DNA of 40,365 nt from a bacterium. Lineage in GTDB: Bacteria > Patescibacteriota > Saccharimonadia > Saccharimonadales > OMJO01. The stretch covers positions 1 to 40,365 of the forward strand of contig OMJO01000017.1 of assembly GCA_900299395.1 (NCBI GenBank), given 5' to 3'. Shown in pieces: positions 2,217-28,978 of the stretch. The position numbers were made by a program, and so were the translations under genes. Position 1 is the stretch's first letter. Every line of letters starts with the position of its first letter. A model generated the notes under the pieces. That model was not told the origin of the DNA and did no database searches. It saw nothing but the letters and a program-made list of their open reading frames with translations.

Positions 2217-3158
2217 TTATCGGTAGCTGTCTAGTCGGCGCAGGAGTTCCTCTGGCGTTTGGCAACTCATCAGTTCTTCGCGCAGTTCTTTGGCGCCATC
2301 AAAATCATTGATGTAGATCTTGCAAAACTTATTGAGCGTATAGATCTTACGCTCGTTGTCATTCCAGGTTTTTTGAAACAATTCGACTTGCTTACGATAT
2401 AGGTCTAACTTCTCGGCTCTGGACATGTTTGGCCAAGGACTTTCTAAAGCAAATGCGTACGGATCGTGGAAAATCCCCCTACCAATCATAATGCCGTCGA
2501 GCTGGTGCTTTTTGGCCAACTCTTCCCCTTGCGTTCGATTCATAACATCGCCGTTGCCCACGATGAGCGTGGTAGGGGAGAGCTTGTCTCGTAAACCTCG
2601 CACATGCTCAATAGCATCCCATTCAGCCGGCACTTTACTGAGTTGCTTGGCCGTTCTGCCATGAATAGTTAACATGTTAAGTTTTTGCTGTAATAGAAAC
2701 TCGTGCCACGTGTAGTCTACTTCATTGAGCCCCAGCCTCGTTTTTACCGATAAGGGCAGGGAAGACCCCCCTTCCCTGACTGCCTGAATAATCTCCCCTG
2801 TTAGTACCCTGTTATTGATAAGTGCAATGCAGCACCCATTTTTGATAACAGCTTTGTCTGGACAGCCAAGGTTGATATCTATACCATCAAAACCCATCTC
2901 TACGATGTCTCGCGCTGTTTTGTAATAGTTTTTCGGGTCTTTACCCCATAGTTGCGCAATGATGGGCTTTTCTTTCTTAGAAAATTTCAGTTTCTTGAGT
3001 AGCTTTTCCCTGCCTGGGCTTTGCAAACCATCAACATTTACAAATTCCGTAAAGTACAGGTCTGGGGCAGCACACTCTCCAACTATCTGCCGAAAGACGG
3101 TGTCGGTTACGTCGTCCATGGGTGCCAGCACAAAAAACGGACGAGGCAATTTTGTCAT
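2217..3158 (-). CDS. tRNA-dihydrouridine synthase (Dus family)
   Basis: FVLAPMDDVTDTVFRQI, INLGCPDKAVIKNGCC, LTIHGRTAKQL, VGNGDVMN, IMIGRGIFHDPYAF. Internal ATG at 3158 is the likely start. Confidence 0.92.
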   Translation of the reverse strand: MTKLPRPFFVLAPMDDVTDTVFRQIVGECAAPDLYFTEFVNVDGLQSPGREKLLKKLKFSKKEKPIIAQLWGKDPKNYYKTARDIVEMGFDGIDINLGCPDKAVIKNGCCIALINNRVLTGEIIQAVREGGSSLPLSVKTRLGLNEVDYTWHEFLLQQKLNMLTIHGRTAKQLSKVPAEWDAIEHVRGLRDKLSPTTLIVGNGDVMNRTQGEELAKKHQLDGIMIGRGIFHDPYAFALESPWPNMSRAEKLDLYRKQVELFQKTWNDNERKIYTLNKFCKIYINDFDGAKELREELMSCQTPEELLRRLDSYR

Positions 3159-23965: not shown

Positions 23966-25657
23966 ATGCATCAAGACGTATTTGCCGAACTGAGTCTCGT
24001 CATCGCCATCACTGCTGCGGTATCCATTTTTATGCGCCTCATCAAACAACCACTGATCTTGGGATACATCGTCGCGGGCCTGTTAGTCGGACCATCCCTA
24101 TTAAACGTCATCCATTCGGTTGAAACATTCCAAGTATTCTCAAATATTGGGATTGCCCTGCTACTATTCATCATTGGCCTCGGTATGAATGTGTCGGAAT
24201 TGCGTAAGTTGGGGCGCGTTGTACTGATAGCCGCGACTGCTTCTTTATTGACTATCACCTTGCTTGGTTACGCCACCAGCAGTGTGATGGGCTTCACAAA
24301 AACCGAATCTTTTATAGTTGGGCTTAGCTTATTCTTCAGCAGCACGATTATTATCGTTAAAATTCTGTCAGACAAGAAAGAGCAAAACCGTTTGCATGGA
24401 CAGATTGCTATCGGTGTCATTTTGCTTGAGGACTTAGTAGCCACTATTGCTCTTCTTTTTTTGGTAGCCGGGAAAGATGGCGGACTGGACGCCGGCCAAG
24501 TAAGTACTCTCATGCTAAAAGGCTTCGCTCTTATGCTGTTCTTGATCATTTGTAGCACAAAGATACTACCGGTTGTCTCAAAGCATATTGCCAGTTCCCA
24601 GGAATTGCTTTTTCTGTCTGCAATCACATGGGGTTTTGGCATTGCGACATTATTTAAGCAAGCTGGTTTTTCTATCGAGGTTGGAGCTCTGTTTAGTGGC
24701 GTAGCTCTAGCACCCTCACCGTATGCACGGGAAATTAGTGCCCGCTTAAAACCATTACGTGATTTCTTCATTGTGCTGTTCTTTATTACGTTGGGTGAGA
24801 GCATGAACGTCAGTAACCTATCGTCTGCTGTTGGGCCAGCACTCGTTTTATCGGCAATCGTCATGTTCGCCAAGCCTCTCGTCATCACTTCGACAATGGG
24901 CTTGCTTGGCTACACAAAGCGTGTCAGCTTCAAAACGGGTGTGAACTTATCTCAAATTAGTGAATTTTCGATTGTCTTAGTGGTACTTGCCAGTAATGCA
25001 AAACTGGTTGACCCACGGTTAAGTGCCATCATCACACTGGTCGCTATTATTACCATCGCCACCTCCACCTATATGATGCAGTACGACGATGAACTATTTG
25101 CTATTTTTGACAAATTTAAACTTCACCTTTTCGAAAAAGAAGTTACATATAAGGAAAATCGATCACAAGGAACTCATTCACTATTGCTTTTTGGGTATCA
25201 CCACGGCGGACATGAATTTATCCGAGCCTTTAAAGGTATCGGGAAGCGATATCTCGTGGTCGATTACGATCCATCTGTGATTGAATCGCTAGAGGCGCAA
25301 GAGATTCCATTTTTGTATGGAGATGCAACTGACGTGGAACTGCTGGATGAAGTCGGTATTGATAAAGCAAAACTTATCATCAGCACTTTTTCGGATTTTG
25401 AAGTGTCCAAACAGCTTGTTACGAATATTGTAAAGGTTAACCCTGGTGCGGTTATTATTTGTCACGCCGAAAACAAGGAACAAGCAGTTGAGTTATACGA
25501 CACTGGTGCAACGTATGTGATGATTCCCCAATACATTGGTAGTGAAAAAATTAGCTCATTCATCCGAAAAAACGGACTCAACAAGACCGAGTTTGAGAAC
25601 CATCGCGCGAAACACCTTGACTATTTACAGTCGCATTTCGAACCAGCAGAAGTCTAG
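23966..25657 (+). CDS. CPA2-family cation:proton antiporter with TrkA-N (RCK) domain
   Basis: LGYIVAGLLVGPSLLN, LLFIIGLGMN; C-terminal LLFGYHHGGHEFIRAF...YLVVDYDPSVIESLEAQEIPFLYGDATD. Confidence 0.92.
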   Translation: MHQDVFAELSLVIAITAAVSIFMRLIKQPLILGYIVAGLLVGPSLLNVIHSVETFQVFSNIGIALLLFIIGLGMNVSELRKLGRVVLIAATASLLTITLLGYATSSVMGFTKTESFIVGLSLFFSSTIIIVKILSDKKEQNRLHGQIAIGVILLEDLVATIALLFLVAGKDGGLDAGQVSTLMLKGFALMLFLIICSTKILPVVSKHIASSQELLFLSAITWGFGIATLFKQAGFSIEVGALFSGVALAPSPYAREISARLKPLRDFFIVLFFITLGESMNVSNLSSAVGPALVLSAIVMFAKPLVITSTMGLLGYTKRVSFKTGVNLSQISEFSIVLVVLASNAKLVDPRLSAIITLVAIITIATSTYMMQYDDELFAIFDKFKLHLFEKEVTYKENRSQGTHSLLLFGYHHGGHEFIRAFKGIGKRYLVVDYDPSVIESLEAQEIPFLYGDATDVELLDEVGIDKAKLIISTFSDFEVSKQLVTNIVKVNPGAVIICHAENKEQAVELYDTGATYVMIPQYIGSEKISSFIRKNGLNKTEFENHRAKHLDYLQSHFEPAEV

Positions 25658-26247
25658 TTTGCAGTGTAAAGCTGCTCCGTAGCGATATAGTCCAGCACTT
25701 CAGGAGGAACCGTTTGCGGAGTTTTGCCCTTTCGCAGTGCAGACCGAACCGCACTTGAAGAAACGCGCGATGAATCTGCCTGGAAAATACTGTACGTTAA
25801 TCGTAGTCCACGTGTCTGCTGCAACGCCACCAGCGTTTCTTTTACTTCCTTCTCTGAACGCCGTCGTATGCCAATAACAAAATGTACCGCTTCTATTAGC
25901 TCTGTTACATGTGGCCAATTTGCGAGATGATCAAGCATATCTTCTCCCATAAGCATGTAGAGCGCAGCTCCTTGAAATCGGGCCTGCAGAACCGGTAGTG
26001 TCTCATGCGCAGTGAAGCGTGCTTGGTTGAGAATAATTAACCCTAAATTTGCATGACGTTTGATTGCAAGCTCCACCATTTGTGTACGGTGCTCGAGGGC
26101 TTTGACGCCTTGTTTACGACGAGGTCGGGGCTCGACCAAAAAGAAGACTTTATCAAGCCCGTATTTTTCTTGAGCCTCAAGTGCAAAACGCACATGACCA
26201 TTATGAATAGGGTCAAACGTGCCGCTATATATACCGACGCGCTTCAC
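25654..26247 (-). CDS. nadD: Nicotinate-nucleotide adenylyltransferase
   Basis: GIYSGTFDPIHNGHVRFALEA, PRRKQGVKALEHRTQMVELA, SSSAVRSALRKGK. GTG start at 26247 overlaps the preceding stop (GTGA). Confidence 0.88.
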   Translation of the reverse strand: MKRVGIYSGTFDPIHNGHVRFALEAQEKYGLDKVFFLVEPRPRRKQGVKALEHRTQMVELAIKRHANLGLIILNQARFTAHETLPVLQARFQGAALYMLMGEDMLDHLANWPHVTELIEAVHFVIGIRRRSEKEVKETLVALQQTRGLRLTYSIFQADSSRVSSSAVRSALRKGKTPQTVPPEVLDYIATEQLYTAN

Positions 26248-26408
26248 TCGGCTGGTATCCCTTCGCAACACTTTGTAGGCATATGACAAGCCGGGCACAT
26301 AAAATGCCCATGAACCGGTTCGATGGGATAATGGCCACAATTATCGCAAAAAAACTCTGGCGATTTCTCTTTTACAAGTTCTTTGTATATTTCATCGTCG
26401 GTATTCAT
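26244..26408 (-). CDS. Small zinc-ribbon-like protein (54 aa), absent from supplied ORF track
   Basis: MNTDDEIYKELVKEKSPEFFCDNCGHYPIEPVHGHFMCPACHMPTKCCEGIPAE; two CxxC knuckles; ATGA overlap with upstream CDS and GTGA overlap with nadD. Confidence 0.85.
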   Translation of the reverse strand: MNTDDEIYKELVKEKSPEFFCDNCGHYPIEPVHGHFMCPACHMPTKCCEGIPAE

Positions 26409-27727
26409 GCGGCTACTCCTAGTTTTTTGCTATCAAATTTTGCCTGACAACCACGACACACACTACATGGCCCTACTTCTGTCTTACCTGGACGAGTAGG
26501 ACAAGTCTGGACCCTACAAATACCCTGCTTCCATTTCCATGATTCTTTTGCTTCCTCAGTTAGCGTTTTTAGATCTGCTAGTTCTAGGCCGAGTTCAGCA
26601 GCCCGCTCTGGCGTCAGAGTGACCCCACAAAATGTGACTGACTGTTCGCCCGCTTGGCTGGCACGTATTAACGCCATGGCACCCTCCGTATCACCGATAG
26701 CAATATGCTCCGAGGCCGCGTAATAGAATCGTGCTGCTTCTTCACCAAAGCAGTCCTTAGCGTACTCAGGCGCTAACGAACAAATGCTACGCAAGCAAAT
26801 TCGTACTTGTTCGGCATACTGCGCTTGGCGTTCCTCAAGGCTAATTGTCCCTGCCTCTACCTGGCTGTCAAGCAGCGCCTCGTAGTGTGCGAGAAGCCCG
26901 ACATAGTGTTCAATTTGCTCTTCACGTACATAGGATAGTTCACGAATCGCTTCGTATTCAACATGTGCGCTATTCGTACCTTCAATTTCACCATATCGTA
27001 TCTTTTGACCAGCTGCTCTATCCAGCATGCGCTGGATATCAACAATGCCATCAGCTAGCTGCTCAGTGTTGTACACTACGGGTGTTCGTAAACCTGCGAT
27101 GTCCGGTTCAAAGCCAGATTCTACTCTGATACCTACTTGCTGAAAAAAGCCAAACGTTGAACGCCAATCGCTGTTGCTACGGCTGATCGTTTCGATCACT
27201 CGAGTATACTGGCCATCTTCGTGTTGAATAAGATGCGTCGAACGAGACATACCCTTCCGGTTCGCATCTCGATAGCCGAGTGATAAACCAGCCAGTGCTT
27301 CCGGCCAATCTGATACCTCAGCAATGCTTGTCCTAGGCGGAAGCATGTTTGCTGCAATGGCAGTGTGTACCCTTTGGATATACAGCTCATTGACTATCTC
27401 CGCGAAACGGCGTTGTTGTTCGTGATGCGGAAGTGCTGCACTCCACCCATTCAGCAAACGGCTCAACACTTGTGCGTTAATATCATCGAGGTTGCCAGAA
27501 ATTTCTACTCTTGATAGGTGCCCTGATGCAGTAAGTGCTTCCATTAGTGCCGTACGTGCGTTGTCTTCTCGTTCGGGCATATGCACCAGCGGATTCTCGA
27601 TACTAGTCCGCTGGTCTATCAGCTGCCACGCTTGTTGCTCTAGCGATACACGGTCAATCAGCAGTTGGGCATCCAGAAATTCTGGTGCGCTCTGTTGTTC
27701 AGGTGTATACGTTTCTATGTTGACCAT
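26405..27727 (-). CDS. Hypothetical protein with C-terminal Cys-rich (zinc-binding-like) tail
   Basis: 440-codon ORF; tail CRVQTCPTRPGKTEVGPCSVCRGCQAKFDSKKLGVAA; no family recognised. Confidence 0.8.
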   Translation of the reverse strand: MVNIETYTPEQQSAPEFLDAQLLIDRVSLEQQAWQLIDQRTSIENPLVHMPEREDNARTALMEALTASGHLSRVEISGNLDDINAQVLSRLLNGWSAALPHHEQQRRFAEIVNELYIQRVHTAIAANMLPPRTSIAEVSDWPEALAGLSLGYRDANRKGMSRSTHLIQHEDGQYTRVIETISRSNSDWRSTFGFFQQVGIRVESGFEPDIAGLRTPVVYNTEQLADGIVDIQRMLDRAAGQKIRYGEIEGTNSAHVEYEAIRELSYVREEQIEHYVGLLAHYEALLDSQVEAGTISLEERQAQYAEQVRICLRSICSLAPEYAKDCFGEEAARFYYAASEHIAIGDTEGAMALIRASQAGEQSVTFCGVTLTPERAAELGLELADLKTLTEEAKESWKWKQGICRVQTCPTRPGKTEVGPCSVCRGCQAKFDSKKLGVAA

Positions 27728-27734
27728 CTAAAAA

Positions 27735-27755
27735 CCCTCGTTCCGCGAACAAGGG
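27735..27755 (-). promoter_or_regulatory. Terminator/attenuator-like hairpin containing the probable Shine-Dalgarno
   Basis: Minus strand CCCTTGTTC-GCG-GAACGAGGG-TTTTTAG-ATG: 9-bp stem plus T5, with GAGGG 7 nt before the start codon. Confidence 0.65.
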
Positions 27756-27759
27756 CCTG

Positions 27760-27951
27760 CTACACATAAAATGTGCGCTCCTGCTCGGGAGTCTTCTTCC
27801 GTGTCTGGCTATCACAGTTGCGGCACAGCTCAGGATTTACACCTGATTCCGGTAATTGTAAATGTACTAGTAGAATAGCACCTTTTGAAAACGCTATATG
27901 TAGTATTTTTTGCTTGAATAATACATAGGTAGTCGCTATGCTTGGGGACAT
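27760..27951 (-). CDS. Possible leader ORF or gene remnant (up to 63 aa) with CxxC
   Basis: Frame ends LPESGVNPELCRNCDSQTRKKTPEQERTFYV; stop lies 4 nt before the hairpin. True start unclear. Confidence 0.35.
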   Translation of the reverse strand: MSPSIATTYVLFKQKILHIAFSKGAILLVHLQLPESGVNPELCRNCDSQTRKKTPEQERTFYV

Positions 27952-28978
27952 GTCAGTATTCGAATACGAGGCACTGGAGTATGAGGATCGCTTATTGATT
28001 CATAACGCACTAGCCGAAACAACCACCCGGCACATCGTTGCAAATGAAGGCCTATTCACTCCCCGGCCATTTAGCCCCGCTGCAAATCCCTCACAATTAC
28101 TAGAAACAACCCATCTCTTTCCTGTACCGGCAACGTTTGACGATGTCGGTGACGAGCTTGGCATTAGAACACTGGCGCGTGTAGCCGCCGGCAATTTAGA
28201 TGAGGCCATACGTCAGGAACTGAGGAAACAAAAGTCCTTCATCAGTCTGGCCGAACACAATCGGCGTGAGGGTAAGCACTTGTTTAACCTCACCACCCAC
28301 CAAAAAATGATTGATGTAGCGGATTATGACGCTGTTTGGACTGAGTTTACCGAGCATGACCATTGGCAAGACGATAGTGGTATTGGCATTAGCCGGGGCG
28401 TGACAACAATCGAGGCGTTTGACATGGCGGCCTCCGAAGTCGCCCAAAAAATCGGGCATGTATTTATGAGCTTCCCTCGCACCGATACCATCATGAGACT
28501 AGCAGAAACATTCAAGGGGCGGCAGGCTGAACGCCAACGAGAAAACCCGCATGTTCGTTTTATTGATATTGATGCCTTGATTGAAACAAACAATCGAGAT
28601 ATGCGTGTCGGAATACGTGAGTGGTTGGGAGTCAGTCCAAGCTCACGCATTCACAGACTGGGCCGGCACGCAACGGGACGATACTTCAACTGGGCAATCG
28701 AAGGTGCAACAACACAAGTTGAGTATGGTGATGACCATCGACCAGAGCGCATACAACTTGGCAAAGTTGCGAAAGGTGTCGTGGATGTCTTAAAGCATGG
28801 CTACTCTATACCGATTGTCCTGTGGGACCAAGACGATCCGATTGTTGAACTTGGAGAGGTAACTGAAGTAAAAAGTATGGCAGACGTTGCCCAGATTCAA
28901 GAATGGCAACGCAAGACGCTTGCCCGACGACTCAATATGCCCGACGAAGCGGTGACCATCAGACAAGAAACTGCTTAA
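27938..28978 (+). CDS. Hypothetical protein (346 aa)
   Basis: Long ORF with AGGTAG upstream of ATG 27938; divergent from the 26.2-27.9 kb genes; no family recognised. Confidence 0.75.
   Translation: MLGDMSVFEYEALEYEDRLLIHNALAETTTRHIVANEGLFTPRPFSPAANPSQLLETTHLFPVPATFDDVGDELGIRTLARVAAGNLDEAIRQELRKQKSFISLAEHNRREGKHLFNLTTHQKMIDVADYDAVWTEFTEHDHWQDDSGIGISRGVTTIEAFDMAASEVAQKIGHVFMSFPRTDTIMRLAETFKGRQAERQRENPHVRFIDIDALIETNNRDMRVGIREWLGVSPSSRIHRLGRHATGRYFNWAIEGATTQVEYGDDHRPERIQLGKVAKGVVDVLKHGYSIPIVLWDQDDPIVELGEVTEVKSMADVAQIQEWQRKTLARRLNMPDEAVTIRQETA

Follow-up and report, generated by a model that had tools for sequence, protein, structure and literature searches.

Among the closest known counterparts of the arrangement described here is the repressing cobalamin riboswitch of Priestia megaterium metE, in which, by experiment, a kissing loop stabilises P13 and leaves the terminator free, and in which the 5' side of the terminator is paired by the 3' side of P13 in the ligand-free state (PMC10653944). 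In activating riboswitches, a sequence is shared between P13 and the terminator (PMC10653944). A connection to deoxyribonucleotide synthesis is on record for Streptomyces, where, according to the passages of PMC3293853 that cite Borovok 2006, a B12 riboswitch controls nrdABS and nrdRJ encodes the class II enzyme. A literature search returned no paper describing cobalamin riboswitches in Patescibacteria-type genomes. The locus analysed here lies in a stretch of 40,365 nucleotides (the window), in which a hairpin at the start codon of a 440-aa gene probably serves as the expression platform of a cobalamin (corrinoid) riboswitch by which abundant B12 switches the gene off. What would be new is the fusion, in a cobalamin riboswitch, of a terminator with a Shine–Dalgarno hairpin, and its placement ahead of an undescribed gene family that has a link to the nrd regulon.

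The window locus has the L5–L13 kissing loop, P13, the terminator, and the antiterminator made of the P13 3' side and the terminator 5' side in common with metE (PMC10653944). It differs in that the 3' arm of the terminator doubles as the Shine–Dalgarno sequence, in that the T-tract nearly abuts the start codon, in that the target is the undescribed family rather than metE, and in the minimal P6 arm of its aptamer. The Streptomyces nrdABS/nrdRJ system, as far as it is set out in those passages, shares a B12 riboswitch, nrdR, a B12-dependent nrdJ and the link to deoxyribonucleotide synthesis, whereas the target in the window is no recognisable ribonucleotide reductase.

On the minus strand, positions 27762-27725 read TAG CAGG CCCTTGTTC GCG GAACGAGGG TTTTT AG ATG, with a GTG codon directly before the TAG. 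Sequence and ORF coordinates agree exactly with the order given in a preliminary description of this DNA (TAG, 4 nt, stem, GCG, stem, TTTTTAG, ATG). The elements are as follows:
27760-27762, minus strand: TAG stop codon (27762-27760), flanking the hairpin
27735-27755, minus strand: sequestor/terminator hairpin with a 9-bp stem and a GCG loop; layout kept in relatives with paired sequence variation
27735-27739, minus strand: Shine–Dalgarno sequence GAGGG, within the 3' arm of the hairpin
27730-27734, minus strand: T5 tract, read from the sequence; a T-tract follows the Shine–Dalgarno-bearing hairpin in 36 of 72 leaders
27725-27727, minus strand: ATG start codon (27727-27725), flanking the hairpin on its other side
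26405-27727, minus strand: target gene, 440 aa, of an undescribed Cys-rich family; homologues lie behind the aptamer in relatives
25654-26340, minus strand: NadD-like nucleotidyltransferase, the next gene downstream (PF01467, E = 1.3e-16)

The GC-rich stem of 9 bp is followed directly by the T5 run, as in an intrinsic terminator; the run ends 2 nt before the ATG, and the distance from stem to ATG is 7 nt. The 35-nt element folds with an energy of -15.2 kcal/mol (z = -3.63), and one of 200 dinucleotide shuffles was equally stable. A generic terminator scan of the window did not list the hairpin at 27735-27755, probably because the stem pairs on into the T-run through G-U pairs and leaves too few T. 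Termination of transcription at the hairpin is predicted from this layout. The same resemblance to an intrinsic terminator would suit a plain terminator of the upstream transcript, with the 440-aa gene served by a promoter of its own after the hairpin, an option that the preliminary description had offered for the short ORF upstream. This option appears exceedingly unlikely: the Shine–Dalgarno sequence lies inside the 3' arm, the 7 nt between stem and ATG leave no room for a promoter, and in relatives whose sequences differ this layout again comes after the aptamer.

What the preliminary description had overlooked is the aptamer, together with P13, the kissing loop and a pairing in competition with the hairpin. 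Directly 5' of the hairpin and on the same strand, a match to Rfam family RF00174 was located at 27757-27898 (30.9 bits, E = 3e-6, 401 bp searched), the only one in the 705-kb assembly. The parts of the leader were assigned as follows:
27798-27853, minus strand: cobalamin aptamer core with P3, P4, P5/L5 and P6 (RF00174, 30.9 bits; R1, 79.2 bits)
27799-27810, minus strand: B12-box-like segment AGCCAGACACGG, assigned by comparison with relatives
27821-27825, minus strand: L5 half of the kissing loop, UGCCG; complementary to L13 CG(N)GCA at all 62 loci analysed
27778-27791, minus strand: P13 hairpin CTCC[CGAGCA]GGAG, with L13 at 27782-27787
27762-27776, minus strand: small spacer hairpin between P13 and the sequestor, from folding; similar small hairpins occur in many relatives

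The score lies just below the curated gathering cut-off of RF00174 (31.5 bits); strictly, the window RNA is a near-member of the family by score that, judged by its structural features, would work like a member. It has the P3–P6 core, L5, the B12-box-like segment and P13/L13 in common with the family. The Rfam alignment, in contrast, places P13 on the B12-box columns, where it sets CTCCCGAGCAGGAG, whereas the relatives point to AGCCAGACACGG instead. R1, a model of our own built from a 42-sequence alignment, gave 79.2 bits at 27777-27857, a value that is not independent since the window sequence is among the 42.

Helices P3, P4 and P6 covary among the relatives, and L5 and the B12-box region are conserved. 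L13 (CG-A-GCA) can pair with L5 (UGCCG) if one base is bulged out, which departs from RF00174 and has a precedent in the bulged kissing loop of env8HyCbl (PMC10653944). The bulged base is A, G or C, and the five pairs are invariant in 62/62 loci, so that covariation cannot support the kissing loop. A rule located the P13 stem in 71 of 77 loci (misplaced in one of them, L079), inspection by eye added 4, and this stem does covary (CTCC/GGAG, CTCT/AGAG, CTTC/GAAG, TTCC/GGAA, GATCT/AGATC). For aptamer and P13 together, 95.3% of the cells of the 42-sequence alignment were paired as against at most 44.2% with partners slid, and 221 double-change cells were counted against 72.7 in shuffled alignments; these permutation tests treat loci as independent and are uncorrected for relatedness. 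A corrinoid is the presumed ligand, and the associations that bear on it are the DUF4430/DUF6580 genes behind the aptamer in some relatives and the co-occurrence with class II ribonucleotide reductase (RNR). Long P6-arm insertions were seen in L093, L100, L105, L107, L117, L121 and L122, with core lengths of up to about 240 nt compared with 81 nt in the window. Separately, in L071 (positions 3001-3127 and downstream, G062 contig 2), a second aptamer-like match lacks P13 and precedes a TauD-like 428-aa protein, which has a weak match to an RNR N-terminal domain (E = 7e-4).

The short ORF at 27760-27951 (minus strand) does exist as an open frame of 63 aa, and its stop codon lies 4 nt before the stem. 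From this geometry, the preliminary description had proposed a translated-leader attenuator, in which ribosomes on the 63-aa frame decide whether the hairpin forms, and upstream ORFs inside B12 aptamers can indeed be translated in M. tuberculosis (PMC11260477). The frame, however, runs across the covarying, structured cobalamin aptamer; its ATG is located upstream of the likely -10 hexamer (27872-27877), and after the likely transcription start no in-frame ATG, GTG or TTG occurs except as the last codon. A comparable leader ORF ending near the hairpin was present in only 7 of 43 relatives. Leader-peptide attenuation, which we regard as having next to no chance of being correct, was rejected on account of the unconserved frame and its start codon upstream of the likely promoter. 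The dual-use element of the earlier interpretation is thus retained and its attenuator discarded.

The hairpin's 5' arm is complementary to the 3' half of P13 plus L13, as in a metE-type platform:
27746-27753, minus strand: sequestor 5' arm segment CTTGTTCG, which can pair with P13 CGAGCAGG (27780-27787) as antiterminator/antisequestor

The pairing of CGAGCAGG with CTTGTTCG comprises 8 bp including 2 G-U pairs. Across loci, the complementarity is locus-specific: the mean score was 16.0, as against 14.6 (sd 0.28) with partners swapped, where 0/300 swaps reached the observed score, and 10.5 with shuffled arms. In L090, P13 contains one extra base, for which the arm has a partner (CGAGCTAGG / TCTAGCTCG). 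When the window transcript was cut before the 3' arm, the antisequestor was favoured (-16.3 versus -10.6 kcal/mol); in leaders cut at the same place, it replaced P13 in 38 of 43, compared with 24% when the downstream part was shuffled, with a median gain of 8.6 versus 2.0 kcal/mol. These comparisons across loci, too, are uncorrected for relatedness. For the full window leader at equilibrium and without ligand, the hairpin state (-24.9 kcal/mol) was 3 kcal/mol better than the antisequestor state (-21.9), so switching must be kinetic and decided during transcription.

Since the 3' side of P13 in the window is complementary to the 5' side of the terminator and not shared with it, an OFF switch is predicted. 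An activating corrinoid riboswitch is known from A. halodurans cobT (PMC10653944), and an ON switch was considered for the window on that ground; the cobT design, however, shares the P13 3' side with the terminator 5' side, as opposed to the complementary, repressing design found here, and an ON switch is accordingly given very little credence.

The distribution of the riboswitch was assessed among relatives. In a covariance-model search of 197 genomes of the order, 98 had an RF00174 match, almost always a single one, and 38 of the 197 passed the cut-off of the family; with R1, matches were obtained in 76 of 99 genomes from the order and, across the phylum, in 94 of 382 sampled. Seventy-five RF00174 loci of the order and the window, 76 in total, were compared. 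The family of the window protein follows the aptamer in 64 of the 76, a count that rests on profiles grown inside these same neighbourhoods. In an independent protein search of 99 genomes, a homologue was found in 16, with the aptamer directly upstream in all 16. Elsewhere in the phylum, the aptamer precedes genes for other, uncharacterised Cys-rich proteins as well as genes of other sorts. In L061, L077, L086, L093, L110, L052 and L112, the genes behind the cobalamin riboswitch resemble DUF4430 plus DUF6580 (Pfam confirmed the families for L052 and L110; in the other five they were assigned by size and place), and in at least two of the 64 loci the target-family member sits after such genes. 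DUF4430 resembles the B12-binding domain of transcobalamin, and the two genes are a plausible B12-uptake pair.

For the survey of start-codon hairpins, the start codon was chosen by a hairpin-blind rule. A stable hairpin ending at most 12 nt from the start was found in 50 of 72 leaders; in 44 of the 72 its 3' arm carried a Shine–Dalgarno-like sequence, and in 36 of those 44 a T-tract followed as well. The corresponding values were 12.2%, 3.4% and 0.4% for shuffled leaders, and 20, 4 and 0 for 304 control ORF starts of the same DNA. The parser was conservative, and the T-tract class omits the window itself because its stem extends into the T-run. The closest relative, L003, and the window have one layout with different stem sequences, and in many loci both sides of the stem have changed; since these stems were selected for pairing, their variety counts as evidence and the percentage paired does not. 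The claim that a single element combines a terminator-like structure with the Shine–Dalgarno sequence thus holds in relatives, where the layout is kept through paired sequence changes, and the refuting outcome named in the preliminary description, a stem lost while the start codon stays, does not count against it.

By the rule used, half of the leaders lack a clear T-tract, and so in these termination may play a secondary part or be absent. This raises the reading that the riboswitch is as proposed and its hairpin acts on translation only, the T-tract being incidental. Shine–Dalgarno sequestration is wider than the T-tract (44 versus 36 of 72), the hairpin is kept without a T-tract in L082, L089, L078 and L108, and known translational cobalamin riboswitches act in this manner (PMC10653944). 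A T-tract directly 3' of the stem in 36/72 leaders, against 0.4% of shuffled leaders and 0/304 control starts, speaks against this reading, and a purely translational switch is judged unlikely, though worth keeping in mind. Given the relatives without a T-tract, translation control is likely the common function of the hairpin and termination an addition.

The riboswitch with a hairpin able to stop both elongation and initiation is the reading that we favour, and it was assembled from features visible in the sequence: the aptamer, P13, the kissing complementarity, the hairpin and the competing complementarity, together with their conservation and covariation. After transcription of the leader, a corrinoid would bind the aptamer; in the bound state, L5 would kiss L13 and lock P13; the downstream hairpin would then fold and hide the Shine–Dalgarno sequence and, where a T-tract is present, would also release RNA polymerase. 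In the ligand-free state, the 3' side of P13 would pair with the 5' arm of the hairpin, so that GAGGG would be left open and transcription would go on.

Upstream of the aptamer, two further elements were recognised:
27872-27880, minus strand: likely extended -10 element (TGC TATTCT); GTGnTAnACTACTA is conserved at this place in relatives
27891-27906, minus strand: NrdR-box-like element ATACTACATATAGCGT, with 13/16 matches to the consensus ACACWATATATWGTGT

The extended -10 element presumably functions as the promoter, and many relatives share ATACTAYATVTAGYGT upstream of the aptamer, a sequence similar to the NrdR box. Boxes were scored against letters that we take to be the NrdR-box consensus, ACACWATATATWGTGT. 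The 14-base pattern ACTAYATVTAGYGT has two perfect matches in the 705-kb genome, at 27891-27904 and in the nrdR–nrdJ promoter; as the pattern was drawn from riboswitch promoters, only the nrdR match is independent. A consensus match of at least 12/16 was present in 37 of 71 riboswitch promoters, compared with 4.5% of shuffles and 7.6% of other ORF upstream regions, and in 25 of 30 nrdR promoters, many of which have a second box 32-33 bp away. The NrdR box is described as a 16-bp palindrome (PMC12051234), which the riboswitch promoters have in common with it; they carry one clear box only, whereas pairs 32-33 bp apart are frequent in the nrdR promoters of these genomes. No second strong box was found at 31-33 bp in the riboswitch promoters, where two boxes would be separated by a spacer of 14-17 bp. 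With a box in the promoter and NrdR in the genome, the promoter of the 440-aa gene probably also answers to NrdR, which would place the gene with the B12-dependent RNR. The box-like site lies between the 440-aa gene and a divergent 346-aa gene (27938-28978, plus strand) and could serve both; the 346-aa protein has no significant Pfam match, and in the closest relative the gene divergent from the riboswitch gene encodes a protein 63% identical to it.

The nrdJ product of the window genome is a B12-dependent RNR by family model (NF005122, 1385.7 bits, cut-off 859). By R1, 70 of the 83 genomes that have a class II-type RNR carry the riboswitch, compared with 0 of 6 for class I (p = 5e-5). A family model decided the class for three genes, length and score for all others, and, since the six class I genomes represent two families, the p-value implies more independent events than there are. 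In nearly all genomes, the true NrdR is accompanied by a second, divergent NrdR-like protein with a weak TIGR00244 match (for example, G000 C12:65889-66278, L145). Two nearly complete genomes, G020 (L122) and G063 (L115), have the riboswitch and the target gene; an RNR large subunit and a strong NrdR were not found in them.

The 440-aa family returned nothing significant from Pfam, NCBIfam, PHROGs, PADLOC or PDB sequences, and Foldseek gave no significant fold match in PDB or BFVD. With regard to an RNR identity, 57 members gave no notable Pfam match and there was no PDB fold match. Two branches make up the family; they can be aligned over their full length (hhalign 99.8%, E = 4e-29) and have four invariant cysteines (C367, C409, C421 and C424 in the window protein), and an ORF of about 200 aa follows the target gene in many relatives. 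The protein could either handle corrinoids or spare B12 in the supply of DNA precursors, both roles being compatible with the data.

The bacteria that carry the riboswitch mostly depend on a B12-requiring RNR, and the riboswitch, as a rule present in one copy per genome, suggests that they sense B12 as a nutrient, probably one obtained from a host. It also offers a handle on a widespread protein family without known function. In organisms without inducible systems, for which the need has been stated (PMC11665869), the dual-use hairpin may offer a compact natural design by which to place a gene under B12 control. We tentatively suggest, as a speculative possibility, that the riboswitch-controlled, NrdR-linked family forms the arm of DNA-precursor synthesis that these reduced-genome bacteria use in B12 shortage, with one hairpin gating both transcription and translation. 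If so, the family would let cells with only a B12-dependent RNR live on little B12 or, alternatively, would capture or handle corrinoids taken from the host.
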